The notes beneath the pieces were generated by a model, which searched no databases, was not told where the DNA came from, and was given only the letters and a program-made list of their open reading frames with translations. Shown here one piece after another: positions 29,675 to 46,781 of a stretch of DNA of 61,934 bases. The position numbers and the translations under genes were made by a program. Within the stretch, counting starts at the first letter, position 1; every line of letters starts with the position of its first letter. This DNA is from a virus. The stretch lies in IMG/VR virus record IMGVR_UViG_3300031455_000003, positions 1 to 61,934 of that record. One strand, 5' to 3'.

Positions 29675-30298
29675 ATGATCGCCGCGCTCTACGTCCAGGC
29701 GAATGGCTGCTACTTCGATGTGCCCGAAGTTATCCCGTGGTGTGAGAAGCGCGACGCTAGGCGATACGTGGGGCCACACCCGGTTGTAGCGCACCCACCG
29801 TGTCAGCGATGGGGCCGGTTCTGGCACGGTAGCACGCGCAAACCGCATCAGTTCAAGCTCGGCGACGATGGTGGTTGCTTCGCGGCGGCGCTGGAGGCCG
29901 TCCGCCAGTTCGGTGGCGTGCTGGAGCATCCCGCGGATAGCCGCGCCTGGGCGCACTTCAATCTGAATGCCCCGCCGCGTTCAGGTGGCTGGATCGGCGC
30001 GGACATGATGATGGGCTGGACCTGCTACGTCGAGCAGGGGCGATACGGCCACTTCGCCAACAAACCGACTTGGCTCTACGCCTGCGGAACCGACCTGCCC
30101 GAACTCCGCTGGGGCCGCGGCGAGCAGCGGCTGCATCCGATCGCCCTGGAGCGCCACGGCTACGCGAAGGCCAGACGCATCGGCATGATGGCGATGGTCG
30201 GCGGCAAGAACAAAACGCTCATCCGCGAGGCCACCCCACCAGCATTCCGCGACGTGCTGCTCTCGATCGCCGCAACGGCCCATGCGAGGGCAGCATGA
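29675..30298 (+). CDS. Cytosine methyltransferase-like protein, uncertain
   Basis: A 207-residue protein. HPPCQRWG resembles the Pro-Cys catalytic loop of cytosine-5 methyltransferases, and VLEHPADSRAW the ENV/ENP position, but the usual SAM-binding FxGxG start is not evident (IAALYVQANGCYF). It may be a divergent pyrimidine-modifying enzyme. ATG 29675 is preferred over TTG 29669. Confidence 0.5.
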   Translation: MIAALYVQANGCYFDVPEVIPWCEKRDARRYVGPHPVVAHPPCQRWGRFWHGSTRKPHQFKLGDDGGCFAAALEAVRQFGGVLEHPADSRAWAHFNLNAPPRSGGWIGADMMMGWTCYVEQGRYGHFANKPTWLYACGTDLPELRWGRGEQRLHPIALERHGYAKARRIGMMAMVGGKNKTLIREATPPAFRDVLLSIAATAHARAA

Positions 30299-30534
30299 TC
30301 ACCCTCACCCCGATCGAGACGGCCGCCCTGTCGCATCTGGCGACGCTCAGCGAGCCCTACAGGCCGCTCCGTGGCGCGGCTCCCTCTGCCACCTGCCTCG
30401 CCCGCCTCGTGCCCCACGGCCTCGTCACAGGCCAGCGGGAGCCTATCGACGCCGTCCGATGCAGGCGCAGGGAGGTGACCGTCTACAGCATCACCGTGGC
30501 GGGGCTGGCGGCTGTCGAAGCGGTGGCAGCGTGA
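30295..30534 (+). CDS. Small winged-helix-like protein
   Basis: A 79-residue protein, start MITLTPIETAALSHLATL, with a beta-wing end (VYSITVAGLAAVEAV) like a short winged helix. Coupled at both ends by 4-base overlaps. Confidence 0.55.
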   Translation: MITLTPIETAALSHLATLSEPYRPLRGAAPSATCLARLVPHGLVTGQREPIDAVRCRRREVTVYSITVAGLAAVEAVAA

Positions 30535-31475
30535 GCGTCACGATCCTGACTGGCGACTGCCGCCACGTGCTCGGCTCTCTGCCTGAGCAGAGCGTACAGT
30601 GCTGCGTCACCAGCCCGCCGTATTTCGGACTGCGCGACTACGGCATGGCGGACCAGATCGGCCTTGAGCAGACGCCAGACGCCTACGTCGCCGAGATGGT
30701 GGCGGTGTTCCGCGAGGTAAAGCGGGTGCTGCGGGATGACGGCACGCTCTGGCTGAACCTGGGGGACAGCTACAACAGCGGAACGCAAAGCAACCACGGC
30801 AAGGGTGGGACGATGAGCCGCGACGGGCTCGCACCTGAAGACGGGTGGGCTGGGCACCGTCCGCTTGTCCCCGGTCTGAAGCCCAAAGACCTGATCGGCA
30901 TCCCTTGGCGCGTCGCCTTCGCCCTGCAAGCGGACGGCTGGTATCTGCGCCAGGACATCATCTGGGCCAAGCCCAATCCAATGCCCGAGAGCACGAAGGA
31001 CCGCTGCACCAAGGCGCATGAATACGTGTTCCTGTTGAGCAAGTCGGCACGGTATTTCTACGATGCGAAGGCCGTTGCCGAGACGGCCACCAACCGCCCG
31101 CCTGGATCGAAAGCGATCGACAAGCACATCGCAGTCGCGCTTACCGATCCGAAGGCGCGAACCAAGGCCAACCTCCACAAGATCAAGGCCGTTGACGAGC
31201 GGAACCGCCGCTCCGTCTGGTCTATCGCGACCCGGCCCTACAGCGGCGCGCATTTCGCGACCATGCCGCCGGAACTCGCCGCGACGTGCATCAAGGCGGG
31301 CTCGCGGCCGGGCGACATGATCCTCGATCCGTTCGGCGGCGCCGGAACCACGGCGCTCGTCGCGGACCGGTTGCGGCGTAACGCCACCATAATCGAACTC
31401 AATCCGGCCTATGCCGATCTCGCCCGAGACCGCATCAACTCAGAGGCGGGGCTGTTCGCCCCGGCGGCAGAATGA
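30531..31475 (+). CDS. DNA methyltransferase, beta class (N4-cytosine/N6-adenine)
   Basis: A 314-residue enzyme (GTG start). The catalytic motif TSPPY is near residue 28, before the SAM-binding motif DPFGGAGTT near 266, the order of the beta class. It transfers a methyl group to the amino nitrogen of cytosine or adenine. No restriction enzyme is next to it, so it is an orphan, probably protecting phage DNA. Confidence 0.9.
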   Translation: MSVTILTGDCRHVLGSLPEQSVQCCVTSPPYFGLRDYGMADQIGLEQTPDAYVAEMVAVFREVKRVLRDDGTLWLNLGDSYNSGTQSNHGKGGTMSRDGLAPEDGWAGHRPLVPGLKPKDLIGIPWRVAFALQADGWYLRQDIIWAKPNPMPESTKDRCTKAHEYVFLLSKSARYFYDAKAVAETATNRPPGSKAIDKHIAVALTDPKARTKANLHKIKAVDERNRRSVWSIATRPYSGAHFATMPPELAATCIKAGSRPGDMILDPFGGAGTTALVADRLRRNATIIELNPAYADLARDRINSEAGLFAPAAE

Positions 31476-37286: not shown

Positions 37287-37568
37287 ATGAGCGGCAGTAG
37301 CGAGCGCATCCGGGGACGCAGGGCCGTAGCCTTACGCCGTGCGCGCCTGAGAGCCGAGCCACTGTGCAGGGACTGCATGGCCAAGGGCCGCGTCACTGCA
37401 TCGACTGTGCCTGACCACATCGTGCCGTTGGACCATGGCGGCATAGAGGACGGGCTAGCGATAAGTCCGAACATCCGCTGTTTGTGTGACCCGTGCCACG
37501 CCAAGCGGACGCGCGAGCAGTTCAAGCATCAGCGCATGGAGCGCATGGATGGTTGGCGACCCCGATAG
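37287..37568 (+). CDS. HNH endonuclease of the packaging module
   Basis: A 93-residue protein. CRDC, then PDHIVPLDHGG and LCDPCHAKRT make the zinc-stabilised HNH site. HNH proteins beside TerS/TerL take part in DNA cutting during packaging in HK97-like phages. The 103 bases between it and TerS are G/C-rich and may hold cos or pac, which I cannot define. Confidence 0.85.
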   Translation: MSGSSERIRGRRAVALRRARLRAEPLCRDCMAKGRVTASTVPDHIVPLDHGGIEDGLAISPNIRCLCDPCHAKRTREQFKHQRMERMDGWRPR

Positions 37569-37671: not shown

Positions 37672-38055
37672 ATGTCAGATCGCATCGCGCAACCGCGGTA
37701 TGGGTCGATCTTCAGGGACGACCCCGAGAAGGCTGAGACTGCGAAGGCGAAGTGGGCCGAGGCTGTCGCGCACCTCAAACTGAACGATTGGGTTTCCCCG
37801 GGGCGTCTTGCGGTCGCGGATCGCTATGCGCGAGCCTACGCGGAATACGAGGCGCTTTACCCGATCGCAGCGGCAGAGGGGCCGGTGAAGGTCGGGCCGA
37901 ACGGCGGCGATGTGTTCAATTTCACCTGGTCTGCGGTCGAGAAGCTCAACGAGAGGCTGGCCAAGTTGGAGGCCAAGTTGAAGATTGACCCGAACGACGA
38001 AGGCGAGCGCGTTCCGGCCGCGCCAAAGACAGCTGCCGACGCCTACCTCGATTGA
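37672..38055 (+). CDS. terS: Terminase small subunit, P27 family-like
   Basis: A 127-residue protein. The helical core (WAEAVAHLKLNDWVSPGRL, AVADRYARAYAEYEAL) matches P27-type small terminases, which recognise the packaging site and load the large subunit. The C-terminal part is a coiled coil plus a basic tail. It overlaps the large subunit frame by 71 bases when the TTG start is used. Confidence 0.8.
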   Translation: MSDRIAQPRYGSIFRDDPEKAETAKAKWAEAVAHLKLNDWVSPGRLAVADRYARAYAEYEALYPIAAAEGPVKVGPNGGDVFNFTWSAVEKLNERLAKLEAKLKIDPNDEGERVPAAPKTAADAYLD

Positions 38056-40894
38056 TCGAACGGACGCCTACGCGAGGGATGTCGTCAGCGGCAAGATCGT
38101 TGCGGGTGAGTTCGTGCGCCGGGCGGCGGAGCGCCATTTGCGCGACAGGGTCGAGGGGCCGAAGCGCGGCCTCAAGTGGGATCAGGCGGCGGCAGACGAG
38201 GCGATCGACTTCTTTCCAGCGGTGCTGAGCATCACGGAAGGCGTAAAGGTAGGGCAGCCGTTCAGCCTGCTGCCTTGGCATGTGTTCGTGGTCGGCTCGA
38301 TCTATGGCTGGAAGGATCGAGACGGAAACCGGCGGTTTCGGTTCGTTTGGATCGAGACCGGCAAGGGTCAGGCGAAGGCATTGGCGCTTGATACACCGAT
38401 CCCGACGCCGTCCGGGTGGACCACCATGGGCGCGCTGCGCGACGGCGACACGGTGGTCGGCGATGACGGACAGCCTTGCCGGGTAGTTCAGGCGCATCCT
38501 GTCGTCACCGGGCAGGACTGTTACCGGGTTCGTTTTGACGACGGGACCGAGATTGTAGCGAATGCCGGACACCTCTGGCGCACGGAGATGCGGAGGTCCG
38601 GGAACAGTGGACGCGCGGCGACGACTAAAGGCGTCCCCTTGGCGCAGCGTGGGGCGTGGCGGAAGGGCATCAGAACCACGGCGGAAATCGCCGCGACTCT
38701 GACCTACAAGAACGGACGCTACGCCTCGGCCAACCACAGTGTCGGGATGACAGAGCCGCTGAATTTGCCCGACGCGGCCCTTCCCGTTCACCCGTATGTC
38801 CTCGGGGCGTGGCTCGGGGATGGGGATAGCGACGGCGCCCGCATGACGGTCGGAGATGAAGACGCAGCGACGATGACTGACATCTTGTCGGCGTGCGGCG
38901 TGGTCCTGTCTCCGCAAGGCGGTCATCGTTTCCGCTTCGGCCTTCGCTCCGGCAGAAGGTGGGGGGCGCGGGCCGAGAATCTGGGTAGCCGCCTTCGGGG
39001 GCTCGGGCTCTACGGGAACAAGCACATTCCACCCGCCTATCTACGGGCATCGCGGGATCAGCGCCTTGCGGTTTTGCAGGGCCTAATGGACACGGACGGA
39101 ACCATCGGGGTCGATGGCCAGTGCTGTCTCGGCGTCACGAACCGGCGGATCGCAGAGGGCGCATTGGAGATAGCGCTTTCCCTCGGGCTCAAAGCGACGG
39201 TGGGCACGGAGACGGCGCGCCTGAATGGCGTCGATTGCGGTGAGGTCTATAGGGTTCGGTTCTACGCGCCGGAGGCGCTGCCCGTCTTCCGCTTGCCGCG
39301 GAAGCTAGAGCGTCAGAAGGTGCGACACGGACGTCGGCGCCTCTCCGGCGAGAGGCGCATCGTGGCGTGCGAGCCGGTTGAAAGCGTGCCGGTCCGCTGC
39401 ATCACGGTGGATAGCCCGTCGAGCATGTTCCTCGCCGGTCGGGAGATGGTGCCGACACACAACAGCCCGCTGATGGCGGGGCTTGGCATCTATGAGATCG
39501 TAGGGCGCAAGAAGCAGCGCGCCGAGGTCTACGCCATCGGCGAGGACCGCAAGACCGCCAATGTGATGTTTCGGGATGCTGCGGCGATGTGTCGTGCCCC
39601 GATCCCCCGGAAGGGCGGGCTGACGCTGGAGGGCGCCGGCAAGGTCGTCATTCGCGGCTTCGGCGACAACGCGTGGAAGATCGAGCATCCGGGTAGCGGC
39701 TCAAAGTTCGAGCCCGTCGCGAACAGCGATGCGATCTCGGGACCGAAGCCAACGATGGTTCTCGGCGACGAGATCCACGAGATGAAGACGAACAAGGCCA
39801 TCTCGATCTGGCGCGCGGCCATCGCCAAGATGAGCGGCGACCCGATGATGGTGCTTGGAACCAACACGCCGTCCGTCGATCAGCAGGTAGGCACGACCTA
39901 CAGCGAGTATTTCCAGAAGGTGCTGCGCGGTGAGTTCACCGACGACGGCGCGTTCGCCTATATCGCCCGGACGGACAAGACAGACGATCCGTTCAATGAC
40001 GAAAGCTGCTGGATCAAGGCGCTTCCGGCGCTGGGGATCACCTATCCGGTCGAGAACATCCGCAAGGAGGTCCAGACCGCCAAGGGAATGATCTCCACGT
40101 CCCTGACGACGAAGCGGCTATACTTTGGCATTCCGGTTGGGACGGCCGGATTTTGGATCGATGAAACGGCCTGGCTGAAGATCCAGGGCGAAGTCGATGA
40201 GCGGGAGATGAAGGGACGCCGGCTGCATCTGGCGCTGGACCTTTCGCAGAAGAATGACCTCACGGCGCTTTCCGGCTGCTGGGAGGGCGAGCATATCCAC
40301 GTCAAGACGTGGTACTGGACCTGCGAGACGAGGCTCGCCGAGCGCAGCACCGCAAATCAGATTCCCTACCGGGAACTGGCGGAAGCCGGGCTGATCGAGA
40401 TCACGCCTACGCCGATCATCGACTATGAGTTCGTCGCGCTACAGGTGCAACGGCTGTGCCGCGAGCACGACGTGTTCCAGCTCGTGTTCGACCCGTCGTT
40501 CATCGGCGACTTCATGAAGGCGTGCGCAGACATCGGGTTTGATGTCTGGCGCTACGAGGGCGACGATAAGCCTGCAGGGGTCGGCCTGCGCCTGGTGGGG
40601 CACGGTCAAGGCGGCAAGGTCGTTTTCGAGGGCAAGCAGCTGTGCATGCCGGTGTCCATCCGGCATTTCGAGGATCATATCCTGAAGGGCACGGTCACTG
40701 TCGACCGCAGCAGGTTGACAGACATCTGCGCGTCGAACGCCGTCATCCAGGCGGATGCGCAGAAGAACAAGTTCTTCGAGAAGAACAAGTCTCGTGGCCA
40801 CATCGACGGGCTCGTGACGATCGCGATGGCGGTCGGGTCGGCGACTTCCGAGATGGAAGCCAACACGATCGACATCATGGCGATGATCGCCTGA
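37985..40894 (+). CDS. terL: Terminase large subunit interrupted by an intein
   Basis: A 969-residue precursor, 607 residues after splicing. It is the ATP-driven packaging motor and nuclease. The P-loop reads TGKGQAK then S once the intein (residues 132-493) is removed. Walker B is MVLGDEIHE (Asp595, Glu596). The RuvC-like nuclease carries acidic residues in LALDLSQKNDLTA, LVFDPSF and HIDGLVTI. The TTG at 37985 is the only usual start in frame; TerL homologs begin near TDAYARDVVSG, so a non-standard start near 38033 remains possible. Confidence 0.9.
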   Translation: MTRTTKASAFRPRQRQLPTPTSIDRTDAYARDVVSGKIVAGEFVRRAAERHLRDRVEGPKRGLKWDQAAADEAIDFFPAVLSITEGVKVGQPFSLLPWHVFVVGSIYGWKDRDGNRRFRFVWIETGKGQAKALALDTPIPTPSGWTTMGALRDGDTVVGDDGQPCRVVQAHPVVTGQDCYRVRFDDGTEIVANAGHLWRTEMRRSGNSGRAATTKGVPLAQRGAWRKGIRTTAEIAATLTYKNGRYASANHSVGMTEPLNLPDAALPVHPYVLGAWLGDGDSDGARMTVGDEDAATMTDILSACGVVLSPQGGHRFRFGLRSGRRWGARAENLGSRLRGLGLYGNKHIPPAYLRASRDQRLAVLQGLMDTDGTIGVDGQCCLGVTNRRIAEGALEIALSLGLKATVGTETARLNGVDCGEVYRVRFYAPEALPVFRLPRKLERQKVRHGRRRLSGERRIVACEPVESVPVRCITVDSPSSMFLAGREMVPTHNSPLMAGLGIYEIVGRKKQRAEVYAIGEDRKTANVMFRDAAAMCRAPIPRKGGLTLEGAGKVVIRGFGDNAWKIEHPGSGSKFEPVANSDAISGPKPTMVLGDEIHEMKTNKAISIWRAAIAKMSGDPMMVLGTNTPSVDQQVGTTYSEYFQKVLRGEFTDDGAFAYIARTDKTDDPFNDESCWIKALPALGITYPVENIRKEVQTAKGMISTSLTTKRLYFGIPVGTAGFWIDETAWLKIQGEVDEREMKGRRLHLALDLSQKNDLTALSGCWEGEHIHVKTWYWTCETRLAERSTANQIPYRELAEAGLIEITPTPIIDYEFVALQVQRLCREHDVFQLVFDPSFIGDFMKACADIGFDVWRYEGDDKPAGVGLRLVGHGQGGKVVFEGKQLCMPVSIRHFEDHILKGTVTVDRSRLTDICASNAVIQADAQKNKFFEKNKSRGHIDGLVTIAMAVGSATSEMEANTIDIMAMIA
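38378..39463 (+). mobile_element. Class 3 intein with LAGLIDADG homing endonuclease in TerL
   Basis: A 362-residue intein between Lys131 and Ser494. It starts with Ala (ALALDTPIPTPSGW), not Cys or Ser, and carries the Trp-Cys-Thr triplet of class 3: Trp198 in GHLWRTE, Cys472 in VRCITVDSP, Thr491 in PTHN. It ends in His-Asn followed by Ser. Residues about 270-450 hold two LAGLIDADG motifs (VLGAWLGDGDSDG and LQGLMDTDGTI), so the homing endonuclease is probably intact. Splicing is required to rebuild the P-loop. Confidence 0.9.
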
Positions 40895-40915: not shown

Positions 40916-42811
40916 ATGACCACCATTCGCAAGGCCGCGGCATCCGCCGTTGGCCCTGATCTCGAGTTTGTCCTCTCCGACGAGACCGTGGATCGCTACG
41001 GCGACAAGGTCATGGCGACGGGCTGGGTGCTCGCGAATTTCCGCAAGAACGCGATCGCGCTGTTCGGGCACGACAGCCATTTCCCGATCGGCACGTGGAA
41101 GAACGTGCGCGTCGAGGGCGGCAAGCTGCTCGGCAAGCTGGAGTTCGCGGCCGAGGGCACGTCCGCCCGGATCGATGAGCTCCGCAGGCTGGTCGAGCAG
41201 GGCGTCCTGCGTGCGGTCTCGGTGGGTTTTCGCCCGCTCGAAGACGAGCCGATGGACGAGAAGAACCCCTACGCCGGCCGACGCTACACCCGGCAGGAGC
41301 TGGTCGAGTGCAGTGTCGTAAGCGTGCCGGCCAACCCGGCGGCGCTGGCGAAGGCTGCCCAACTCGGAATTTCCGCTGACGTCATCACCTTAGCCTTCGG
41401 CGAGCGCGCCGATGGGGGCGGGGTGACGCGTCACGGCGCTAGCGGCGAGAGCGCCGCCCCCCGAAACGCCCCCAACATGAGGCACACAATGAAGACGCTT
41501 TCCCAGCGCATCGAGGATGCGCAGACCGATCTCGTCGCCAAGCGCGACAAGCTCGTGGAGCTGAATGCCGCGGACGCGCTCGATCTCGACGCGATCGAGG
41601 AACTGAACGCCCAGCTCGACATGCAGGAGCGCGCGCTCGCGGCCATGAAGTCGTCCGAGGCCAAGCTCGCCGGCACGACCACCAGGTCCGGTGAGCTGGC
41701 GGCTCCGCCGACCAACCGCCGGCCGCTGGGGTTCCAGCAGCGCGAGGTCGACGGCTTCGACTTGATCGTTCGGGCGGCCGTCGTCAACGGCGTCGCGATG
41801 TTCGGCGGCAAGTCGATCGACAAGGTGCTCGATGAGCGCTACCCGGGCCATGAGGCGACCGCGATCATCTCGAAGACGGATGCCACCATCGGCACGACCA
41901 GCGTCAGCGGCTGGGCTTCCGAACTGATGCAGACGAGCTACGCCTCGTTCGTGGACGCGCTCCGCGGCCGGTCGATCTACCCGGATCTTCGCCAGCGCGG
42001 CATGTCGCTGTCCTTCGACCAGTCCGGCACCGCCTATATCCCGAGCCTTACCGCTGGTGGGGCCAACGGCTCGTTCTTCGGGGAAGGCGCTCCGATGCGC
42101 GTCGGCCGCATCACCACTGCGGCGACCACGATGACCCCGCGCAAGCTGGGCGTGATCGTGCCGTTTTCGCGCGAGGCGGCGAAGCGCAGCACCCCGAGCC
42201 TCGAGGCGCTGGTCCGCGACGCGATCGTGCGGGACACTGCGGCGATCCTCGATGCGGCCCTTCTCGATGCGACGGCCGAAGACTCGGTGCGGCCCGCGGG
42301 CCTGCTGAACGGCGTGTCGGCAACCGCCAGCGGCTACGGCGGCGGCGACTACATGGCGGTGATCGAGGATATCTCGGCGCTCATGGCGCCGTTCGATGCC
42401 GCAAACGCCTCGGACGGGATCGTGCTCGTCATGCACCCGGCGCAGTCCCGGAAGCTAGCGATGATGGCGGGTCCGGACGGCACCTTCGGGTGGGCCGACA
42501 AGTTCCTGTCGGAGTTCACCGTCGTGCGGTCCACGCACGCCACGGCCGGCCGGTTGATCGCGCTCCGCGTCTCCGATTTCATCACGGCGGCGGGCGACGC
42601 CCCGCAGTTCGAGATGAGCACCCAGGCGACCGTGCACATGGAGGACACCACTCCCTTGGAGATCGTCGAATCCGACTCGCCCGACGTGGTCGCCGCGCCG
42701 GTCCGTTCGTTCTTCCAGACCGACACCATGGGCATTCGCATGGTGATGGACGTGTCGTGGAAGATGCGCCGCTCCGGCGTTATCCGGTGGATCAACAGCA
42801 CGAGCTGGTGA
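40916..42811 (+). CDS. Prohead protease fused to HK97-type major capsid protein
   Basis: A 631-residue protein. Residues 1-150 are a prohead protease (GHDSHFPIGTW with catalytic His, SVGFRPLED, ECSVVSVPANPAA). A linker and coiled-coil delta region (192-250, MKTLSQRIEDAQTDLVAKR) follow. From about 275 comes the HK97 capsid fold (FFGEGAPMRVGRITT, MTPRKLGVIVPFSREA). Internal ATGs at 41477 and 41489 lack any ribosome site, so a fused precursor cut by its own protease is likely. Confidence 0.9.
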   Translation: MTTIRKAAASAVGPDLEFVLSDETVDRYGDKVMATGWVLANFRKNAIALFGHDSHFPIGTWKNVRVEGGKLLGKLEFAAEGTSARIDELRRLVEQGVLRAVSVGFRPLEDEPMDEKNPYAGRRYTRQELVECSVVSVPANPAALAKAAQLGISADVITLAFGERADGGGVTRHGASGESAAPRNAPNMRHTMKTLSQRIEDAQTDLVAKRDKLVELNAADALDLDAIEELNAQLDMQERALAAMKSSEAKLAGTTTRSGELAAPPTNRRPLGFQQREVDGFDLIVRAAVVNGVAMFGGKSIDKVLDERYPGHEATAIISKTDATIGTTSVSGWASELMQTSYASFVDALRGRSIYPDLRQRGMSLSFDQSGTAYIPSLTAGGANGSFFGEGAPMRVGRITTAATTMTPRKLGVIVPFSREAAKRSTPSLEALVRDAIVRDTAAILDAALLDATAEDSVRPAGLLNGVSATASGYGGGDYMAVIEDISALMAPFDAANASDGIVLVMHPAQSRKLAMMAGPDGTFGWADKFLSEFTVVRSTHATAGRLIALRVSDFITAAGDAPQFEMSTQATVHMEDTTPLEIVESDSPDVVAAPVRSFFQTDTMGIRMVMDVSWKMRRSGVIRWINSTSW

Positions 42812-43894: not shown

Positions 43895-45265
43895 TTGGGG
43901 AAGCGGGCCAAGCGGAAGGCCGTCAAAGGCGAGATCGTCAAGGCCGCCGAAGGCGAATATCGTTCCGGCCCCTATGTTCTGGACGACGGCTGGCTTCCGG
44001 CGGGCTCGGCGTGGAATTTCTGGCAGATGGGCCAGAACCCGCGCCCCTACGGCACGCACTCGGCCATGGTCGAGGCTTGCGTTTCGGCCTACGCGCAGAC
44101 GATCGCGATGTGCCCCGGCGACCACTGGCGCTTGCTCGGCAACGGCGGGCGCGAGCGGGTTACGACTTCCGCCCTGTCGCGGATCCTGCGCCGGCCGAAC
44201 GACTACCAGTCGATCAGCGATCTCAAGCTGAACCTAGCGCGCAATCTCTACGAGCACGGCAACGCCTACGCCTATGCGATCCGCAACGACCGCTACGAGA
44301 TCACCGAACTGCACCTGATGCGCCCGAGGCAGTGCGCCTGCTACGTGGGCGATGACGGCTCGATCTTCTACTCGCTCGGCGGGAACGAGATCGTAGATCG
44401 CCGGATCGGCACGACGATGGTCCCGGCTCGGGACGTGCTGCATGTGCGCCTCCACACGCCACGGCATCCCCTGAAGGGCGAGAGCCCCATTCTCGCGGCT
44501 GCGATCGACATTGCGGCGGGCAATGCGGCGATGGAGCAGCAGCTTGCGTTCTTCCGGAACCAGGCCAAGCCCGGCGTGATGTTGGCGACCGACGCCGCCA
44601 TGACCCGAGAGCAGATCAACGAGGCGCGCGAGCGGTTCCGGGACGTGACTACGGGTGAGAATGCAGGCGGGACGCCGGTGCTCGCTCACGGGCTTAAGCC
44701 GATCGTCGTCGCCACGAGCGCACAGGACGCGCAGCTGGCCGAAACGCTCAAGATGAGCGACCAGGCCGTGGCGCTGGCGTTCCGGGTGCCGCTCCAAGTG
44801 TTGGGAATCGGCGGCACGCCCTACGCGTCCACGGAAATGCTCATGCAGTCGTGGGTCAGCACGGGGCTCGGCTTTGCGCTGAACCACATCGAAGAGGCCT
44901 TCGACCGGCTGTTCAACCTGCGCGGCGTCCCAGAGGAATACGTGGAGTTCTCCACAAAATCCCTGCTGCGATCGGCGTTCAAGGATCGCCTGGAGGGGCT
45001 CGCGCGCGGCGTGTTGACGGGCATCTACAGCCCGGACGAGGCGCGGGCCGAGGAAGAGCTCCCCGAGGTCAAGGGCGGCTACGGCGAAGAGCCGCGAGTG
45101 CAGCAACAGGTCGTGCCGTTGAGCGCATGGGAGAAGGGGCAGATCGCCGCTCCTGCCCCCGCTGCTCCGCCGGCCCCGGCTGCGACAGACGAGGGCGAGG
45201 ATGCAGAACGGAATAGCCCAGACGCGATCTTCCGCCGCCTCGATGTCCTCCGCAGCCTACACTGA
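43895..45265 (+). CDS. Portal protein, HK97 family (TTG start)
   Basis: A 456-residue protein. HSAMVEACVSAYAQTIAMCP, then LYEHGNAYAYAIRNDRY, GESPILAAAIDIAAGN and STEMLMQSWVSTGL are typical of HK97-family portals, the dodecamer through which DNA enters. It lies downstream of the capsid gene, unlike the usual terminase-portal-protease-capsid order. The C-terminal 50 residues are Pro/Ala-rich. Confidence 0.9.
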   Translation: MGKRAKRKAVKGEIVKAAEGEYRSGPYVLDDGWLPAGSAWNFWQMGQNPRPYGTHSAMVEACVSAYAQTIAMCPGDHWRLLGNGGRERVTTSALSRILRRPNDYQSISDLKLNLARNLYEHGNAYAYAIRNDRYEITELHLMRPRQCACYVGDDGSIFYSLGGNEIVDRRIGTTMVPARDVLHVRLHTPRHPLKGESPILAAAIDIAAGNAAMEQQLAFFRNQAKPGVMLATDAAMTREQINEARERFRDVTTGENAGGTPVLAHGLKPIVVATSAQDAQLAETLKMSDQAVALAFRVPLQVLGIGGTPYASTEMLMQSWVSTGLGFALNHIEEAFDRLFNLRGVPEEYVEFSTKSLLRSAFKDRLEGLARGVLTGIYSPDEARAEEELPEVKGGYGEEPRVQQQVVPLSAWEKGQIAAPAPAAPPAPAATDEGEDAERNSPDAIFRRLDVLRSLH

Positions 45266-46781
45266 GGCGCTGGAGCGCGCGCTTGCCCGCGTCATCTCGG
45301 ATGCCGAGCGCCAGATGCAGGCTCTGGCGGCCCGCTGCGACGCCACGGTGGCCGCGATGCAGGCCAGAGTGACGGACGCGGAGACGCGGATCCTCGCGGC
45401 GGAGGCCGTTGTTGCTCGCCGTTTGGCGGCGACAGAAGCGGACATAGCGTTGCGCGTAACGGCGCGGCTGGCCGAGATCGAGCCCGTCGACGTCGCGGAG
45501 ACGGTGCGCGGCTTGCTGCCGCCTCCGCCCGAGCCGTTCGACCCATCGCCGCTGATCGATCGGATTGCGGCGGTCGAGGCGCGCGAGATGCCTGCGCCGT
45601 TCGATCCCGAGCCGCTCCGCAGCGAGTTCTATGGCAGCCTTGCCTCCGTCCGGAAAGAGGCAGCCGACGCGCTGGCGGCCATCCCAGAGCCGCAGGAGCC
45701 CGCGCCGCTGCCCGACATCCCCGGGCTGGTGGATGAGGCCGTGCGCGCCGCTGTGGTGGAGCTGACGGTCGAGATAGACGGCCGTAAGGACGCGGCATCC
45801 GCGGAAGTAGAGCGGATGGTTGGCGATGCCGTCGCGCGTGCTGCTGCTGCACTACCGCCGCCTGCACCGGGCAAGGACGCGGATCCCGAGGAAGTGCGGG
45901 CGATGGTGGCCGGCGCTGTGGAGGCGGCTGTGGCGGCTATCCCTGTGCCCAGCGACGGCAAGGACGCGGACATGGATCAGGTCCGCGCGTGGCTTGACGA
46001 GGCAGTTGCTGCGCTGCCTCCACCGAAGGACGGCGAGAGCGTCGACCCCGATACGGTCAAGACGATGGTGGACGAAGCGGTTGCCGCCATTCCTCCCGTC
46101 GATCTTGAGCCGCTGCGCGAGGAAATCGCTGCGGTGAAGTCGGCCATTCCGGTTCTGCCGGAGCCGGCTGACCTGAGCGGCTTCGCCCTGCGGTCGGAAC
46201 TGCCGGTGCTCCCGGAGCAGAAGGACTGGACGCCTGAGATCGAGGCGCTGCGCGAGGAAATCGCCGGCACGCGCACCGAACTCGGCGAACAGGTCGCCAA
46301 GATCGCCGAGCACCGCGGCGTGTTTCCGATCGCGAAGGAATGGGCTGACGCCGTCCACTACGAAGGCGCGGTTGTGCGGCACAACGGCTCGCTCTGGCAG
46401 GCTGTCCGGGACACGGGCAAAGCCCCGGGCGGGGACGATTGGGCATGCCTCGCGGCGGGTGGAGACAAGGGCGACCCAGGTGAGAGCATGATCGCCCGCG
46501 GCACGTTCGACCCGGCCGAAGAATACAGGCGGCTGGACGTGGTGGCCTACGACGGCGGTGGTTGGCTTGCCAGGACGGACAATCCTGGCGCGATCCCCGG
46601 CCCCGGCTGGCAGTCGATCGCCACGCGCGGCGGTCGCGGCAGGCAGGGCGAGAGCATCAAGGGCGATCCCGGCCCGGGCATCGTGGCTGGCGAAGTGTCC
46701 GACCAGGGGCTGGTGACGCTGACCAACGGGGACGGGAGCGAGGTCGAGATCGACCTGTATCCCGTGCTGGTGCGGCGATGA
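45201..46781 (+). CDS. Coiled-coil/collagen-like fibrous protein behind the portal
   Basis: A 526-residue protein overlapping the portal end by 65 bases (start 45243 is an alternative). Residues 15-110 are a coiled coil (EALERALARVISDAERQM). Residues 160-340 hold repeats of the type DEAVAAIPxPxDGKD. From about 375 there are two carbohydrate-binding-like modules (HYEGAVVRHNGSLWQAV, YRRLDVVAYDGGGWLAR) separated by GDKGDPGES collagen-like pieces. It looks like a surface fibre that might decorate the head or neck. Confidence 0.65.
   Translation: MQNGIAQTRSSAASMSSAAYTEALERALARVISDAERQMQALAARCDATVAAMQARVTDAETRILAAEAVVARRLAATEADIALRVTARLAEIEPVDVAETVRGLLPPPPEPFDPSPLIDRIAAVEAREMPAPFDPEPLRSEFYGSLASVRKEAADALAAIPEPQEPAPLPDIPGLVDEAVRAAVVELTVEIDGRKDAASAEVERMVGDAVARAAAALPPPAPGKDADPEEVRAMVAGAVEAAVAAIPVPSDGKDADMDQVRAWLDEAVAALPPPKDGESVDPDTVKTMVDEAVAAIPPVDLEPLREEIAAVKSAIPVLPEPADLSGFALRSELPVLPEQKDWTPEIEALREEIAGTRTELGEQVAKIAEHRGVFPIAKEWADAVHYEGAVVRHNGSLWQAVRDTGKAPGGDDWACLAAGGDKGDPGESMIARGTFDPAEEYRRLDVVAYDGGGWLARTDNPGAIPGPGWQSIATRGGRGRQGESIKGDPGPGIVAGEVSDQGLVTLTNGDGSEVEIDLYPVLVRR

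Follow-up and report, generated by a model that had tools for sequence, protein, structure and literature searches.

The packaging ATPase and its insert

How a phage can encode its packaging motor with the ATP-binding loop interrupted is the question raised by the terminase large subunit (TerL) gene of IMG/VR virus record IMGVR_UViG_3300031455_000003, 61,934 bases long in all (the window). The TerL open reading frame lies at 37985-40894 on the plus strand, as do all features of the gene given below, begins with TTG and encodes a precursor of 969 residues in which both Pfam TerL_ATPase and TerL_nuclease were detected. It matches phrog_9 (terminase large subunit) with an E-value of 1.3e-101 and is found within a packaging gene cluster, its neighbours being an HNH endonuclease, the terminase small subunit, a fused protease-capsid protein and a portal protein. 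Inside this frame, a stretch of 362 residues (38378-39463, ORF residues 132-493) splits the Walker A loop precisely between Lys131 and Ser494, and its sequence, its homologues and a structural model all identify it as a class 3 intein with a LAGLIDADG homing endonuclease. The original prediction had placed an intein at 38378-39463 of the packaging ATPase, and this location was confirmed down to the individual residues that it had named (Lys131, Ala132, Trp198, Cys472, Thr491, His492, Asn493 and Ser494).

The N-extein (37985-38377) ends in the Walker A sequence ETGKGQAK, as delimited by gapless alignment to intein-free TerLs, and the C-extein (39464-40894) comprises the rest of the TerL ATPase and the nuclease domain, according to Pfam domains and alignment to the same kind of proteins. 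The predicted length of 607 residues for the spliced product is correct when counted from the TTG at 37985, but the true start is uncertain. Homology to relatives sets in at about residue 24, and opposite their ATG the window has a CTG, near 38033, which is possibly the actual start, so that precursor and product may both be about 16 residues shorter.

Several features of the surroundings were also observed. The HNH endonuclease gene is small (37287-37568) and immediately precedes that of the terminase small subunit, a single ORF of 631 residues (40916-42811) encodes prohead protease and major capsid protein as a fusion, and the portal matches (region 43895-46781) are split over two overlapping ORFs, 43895-45265 and 45201-46781, which look like a split or extended portal gene. 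An N6/N4 DNA methyltransferase gene is present at 30282-31475. In this TerL group, the Walker A sequence is GKGQAKS (38360-38377), in which Ala takes the place of the usual Gly before Lys; since this Ala is also found in nearly all intein-free relatives, the intein is not its cause. A search with the intein returned no second copy of it in the whole 61,934-base record.

Class 3 residues and splicing fold

The alignment contained 89 distinct relatives of the intein, drawn from viral contigs, phages and plasmids; as they were sampled by similarity, the counts given here and below, out of 89 or out of 90 with the window intein included, hold for the neighbourhood of that intein rather than for inteins at large. 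Position 1 holds no Ser or Cys nucleophile and is occupied by Ala, the residue also found there in 76 of the 89 relatives. The WCT residues are Trp67 (block position B:12, ORF Trp198, codon 38576-38578), Cys341 (F:4, ORF Cys472, codon 39398-39400), the class 3 catalytic nucleophile, and Thr360 (G:5), and they coincide with Trp67, Cys118 and Thr137, the WCT triplet of 6BS8 (PMC6195587). Together with the block B His65 (codon 38570-38572) and Asn362, all three are invariant across the 90 sequences. The C-terminal end reads THN/S, that is His-Asn followed by Ser (the slash marks the junction), and within this segment of Thr360, His361, Asn362 and the +1 Ser of the C-extein (39455-39466), His361 is shared by 85 of the 90. 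A misalignment of the named residues with class 3 positions had been proposed as grounds for abandoning the class assignment; they do align, both with solved class 3 inteins and with the 89 relatives, and the model agrees.

Homology and predicted fold led to the same assignment. In phmmer searches, the two splicing halves matched Mycobacterium chimaera DnaB1 (6RIX) with an E-value of 6e-30 and M. smegmatis DnaBi1 (6BS8) with 2.5e-29, the N-terminal half of the splicing (HINT) domain (38378-38593, block A with Ala1 to block B) reaching 4e-23 to 6BS8. The C-terminal half, with blocks F and G (39350-39463), was likewise recognised by homology and fold comparison. At full length, about 90 inteins were matched at 39-59% identity, and this resemblance to the class 3 family, judged from the sequences, is far beyond what chance would be expected to give. 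The AlphaFold model of the intein (mean pLDDT 83.9) superimposes on 6BS8 with a Z score of 23.4 and 1.1 Å rmsd over 125 residues at 54% identity, and on PI-SceI with a Z score of 27.5 over 343 residues, which indicates that splicing and endonuclease domains are both present.

Since the HINT fold is common to class 1 inteins as well, the insert could in principle be a class 1 intein that has lost its first Cys, or another non-class 3 element. This is extremely improbable, as the full WCT set is present and the E-values range from 4e-29 to 6e-30 for class 3 DnaB1 inteins versus 6e-05 to 0.002 for gp41-1 inteins; homology, the 90-sequence alignment and the fold comparison all contradict it. On the side of annotation, the PHROG terminase profiles phrog_15, 36964 and 19299 match the intein portion itself (38378-39463), meaning that these profiles include inteins and can wrongly label other intein-bearing proteins as terminases.

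Endonuclease domain and integrity of the intein

The endonuclease domain covers intein residues 125-300 (38750-39277, approximate bounds), where Hom_end (2e-06) and LAGLIDADG_3 (7.9e-05) both score above the Pfam cut-off and the model adopts a PI-SceI-like fold. Motif 1, VLGAWLGDG (38798-38824), contains the acidic Asp148, conserved in 88 of the 90, and motif 2, LQGLMDTDG (39074-39100), contains Asp240, where every aligned member having the endonuclease domain reads DTDG or DSDG. The intact look that had been attributed to the endonuclease, with its two motifs, is thus borne out.

One residue of the splicing domain departs from the consensus. The DxxH position of block B is Asn62 in the window intein (codon 38561-38563), and 82 of the 90 have Asp there, as does DnaBi1. 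Mutagenesis of a block B Asp in class 3 inteins raises C-terminal cleavage (cited in PMC6195587), so the window copy might splice less cleanly and Asn62 may affect splicing fidelity. Taken further, this substitution could point to a decayed intein that splices or cuts poorly, in a phage lineage that is losing it or is itself defective. Such decay is very unlikely given that the frame is open, all catalytic residues are kept, the full-length intein is still 59% identical to its nearest relative, and TerL could not function with a dead intein in its P-loop. Codon divergence speaks in the same direction: in comparisons with the four nearest relatives, differences are more frequent at third codon positions than at the first two, and this holds for the splicing part as well as for the endonuclease part. 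Against IMGVR_UViG_3300049732_000309, the values are 0.54 at third versus 0.23 and 0.22 at first and second positions for the splicing part, and 0.64 versus 0.41 and 0.33 for the endonuclease part, which fits purifying selection on both, with synonymous sites probably near saturation.

Empty sites and history of gain

The join itself was examined in 110 related intein-free TerLs, that of Azospirillum phage Cd included, the others having been found by C-extein similarity; the patterns searched for were confined to the C-extein and so exerted no selection for or against the intein. In nearly all of the 110, the counterparts of the N- and C-extein abut without a gap at GKGQAK/SP, so that the seamless join GQAK-SPLM anticipated by the original prediction is what intein-free relatives display. 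The DNA flanking the empty site is conserved, with 42 of 48 bases shared in the best relatives, and on this sequence evidence it is a plausible candidate for the homing target.

In an extein tree whose deeper parts are unsure and have long branches, the window TerL lies deep in an empty clade, where it forms a group with four intein-free TerLs (support 98), the nearest of them 83% identical to it. The nearest intein found, that of IMGVR_UViG_3300049732_000309 (59% identity, TerL join GKGQIK/SPLL), belongs on the other hand to a TerL outside this group. The nesting of the window TerL among empty ones points to a recent, sporadic gain, for which horizontal transfer of the intein would be the simplest reading. 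Four genomes with related TerLs were searched and contained no copy of the intein, a result that is uninformative alone.

Related inteins at the same join

The window intein is ordinary in kind, being a known type at a known site. Among the 89 related inteins, 84 sit at the Lys/Ser or Lys/Thr join of a P-loop-like sequence; at least 41 have exteins clearly homologous to the window TerL, and many others appear to be located in other P-loop ATPases. In mycobacteriophages, inteins are commonest in TerL, the Lys/Thr site was already called the "classic" P-loop insertion in 2016, and class 3 members occur among the inteins (Kelley et al. 2016, PMC5050341). Endonuclease activity on empty alleles was demonstrated for two mycobacteriophage terminase inteins in that study (PMC5050341).

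The TerL of Mycobacterium phage JeTaime (TerL1-a P-loop intein, cluster E type) resembles the window in its join, P-loop Lys followed by Ser or Thr, in the WCT residues and in the endonuclease domain, but it comes from another host phylum, its intein is about 42% identical and its TerL is only distantly related; from the position given in PMC5050341, we infer that this intein occupies the published site "a". Stenotrophomonas phage SOVA965 (PP079418, annotated only as "terminase") shares the TerL family, the site GKGNGK/SP and the class 3 residues, whereas its intein is 40% identical and begins with Pro1 instead of Ala1. The solved DnaB inteins 6BS8 and 6RIX have splicing domains 51-54% identical to that of the window in structural alignment, a P-loop site before Ser, and both Cys48 and the catalytic Cys, but they are mini-inteins without endonuclease in a helicase. 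Tori and Perler reportedly widened class 3 in 2011 and proposed a phage origin for it.

Two further loci were observed among the relatives. One (L013:2998-3465) carries, at a P-loop GGGK/T join, a 156-residue mini-intein of class 3 that has no endonuclease, likely a case of endonuclease loss. The other (L192, ORF from 1106) has a WCT intein with Cys at position 1 outside the P-loop (FDN/C ... HN/T), which may be a hybrid of class 1 and class 3 or reflect a boundary that was set wrongly.

Proposed regulation by splicing

The original prediction had also suggested that splicing could act as a timer between early and late phases, and this part found no support. The timer, like a redox switch that would rely on a disulfide between Cys48 and Cys341 as in DnaBi1, belongs to a reading in which the intein gates or delays TerL activation. 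The P-loop position does tie TerL activity to splicing, but any P-loop intein would bring such dependence with it. The redox variant draws on the presence of both Cys48 (codon 38519-38521), conserved in 86 of 90 near relatives (96%), and the catalytic Cys, the counterparts of which form a disulfide under peroxide in DnaBi1 (PMC6195587). However, mutation of Cys48 abolishes splicing in DnaBi1 (PMC6195587), so that its conservation requires no redox role, and in a wider, more distant class 3 sample the position is often Thr or another residue. The 110 related TerLs manage without an intein, and reporter assays of five terminase inteins from mycobacteriophages showed fast splicing (PMC5050341). 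Distribution and published splicing data thus speak against a conditional intein, and regulation of either kind is unlikely. Quite unlikely too is the more specific proposal that a Cys48-Cys341 disulfide would pause TerL splicing under oxidative stress and make the packaging motor redox-gated, a property that many phage P-loop class 3 inteins would share.

Cys48 was described as non-conserved in the DnaBi1 paper (PMC6195587). Near-invariant in the near set and replaced by Thr and others in the distant one, it marks a subgroup only, and its use as a signature of class 3 in general was rejected. It was also observed that Cys48 tends to accompany Asp62, while Thr48 accompanies Ser, Cys or His at position 62.

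Proposed mechanism and significance

Taken together, the Walker A loop of this phage TerL almost certainly harbours a mobile class 3 intein, one that would restore the ATP-binding loop by splicing and spread by homing. After translation, the intein would fold and Cys341 would attack the Lys131-Ala1 bond in a site shaped by Trp67, His65 and Thr360; the N-extein would then be transferred to the +1 Ser, followed by cyclisation of Asn362, and the exteins would be joined as GKGQAK-SPLM, by which the ATP-binding loop is predicted to be restored. Before splicing, TerL would lack ATPase activity, and it is sound to infer that the unspliced protein cannot hydrolyse ATP. The most likely role of the LAGLIDADG domain is to cut TerL genes without the intein at the same join in co-infecting phages or prophages, and repair of the cut allele would copy the intein in. 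The simplest reading is that of a selfish element whose insertion site discourages its loss and which profits, as we see it, from a place where imprecise loss would be lethal.

This case leaves the picture of intein or terminase function unchanged. What it would provide is a clear case of recent intein gain, with one occupied TerL within a clade of more than 100 empty ones, and an illustration of how inteins use one and the same P-loop join in unrelated ATPases. The TerL alleles with and without the intein form a ready pair for a homing assay.
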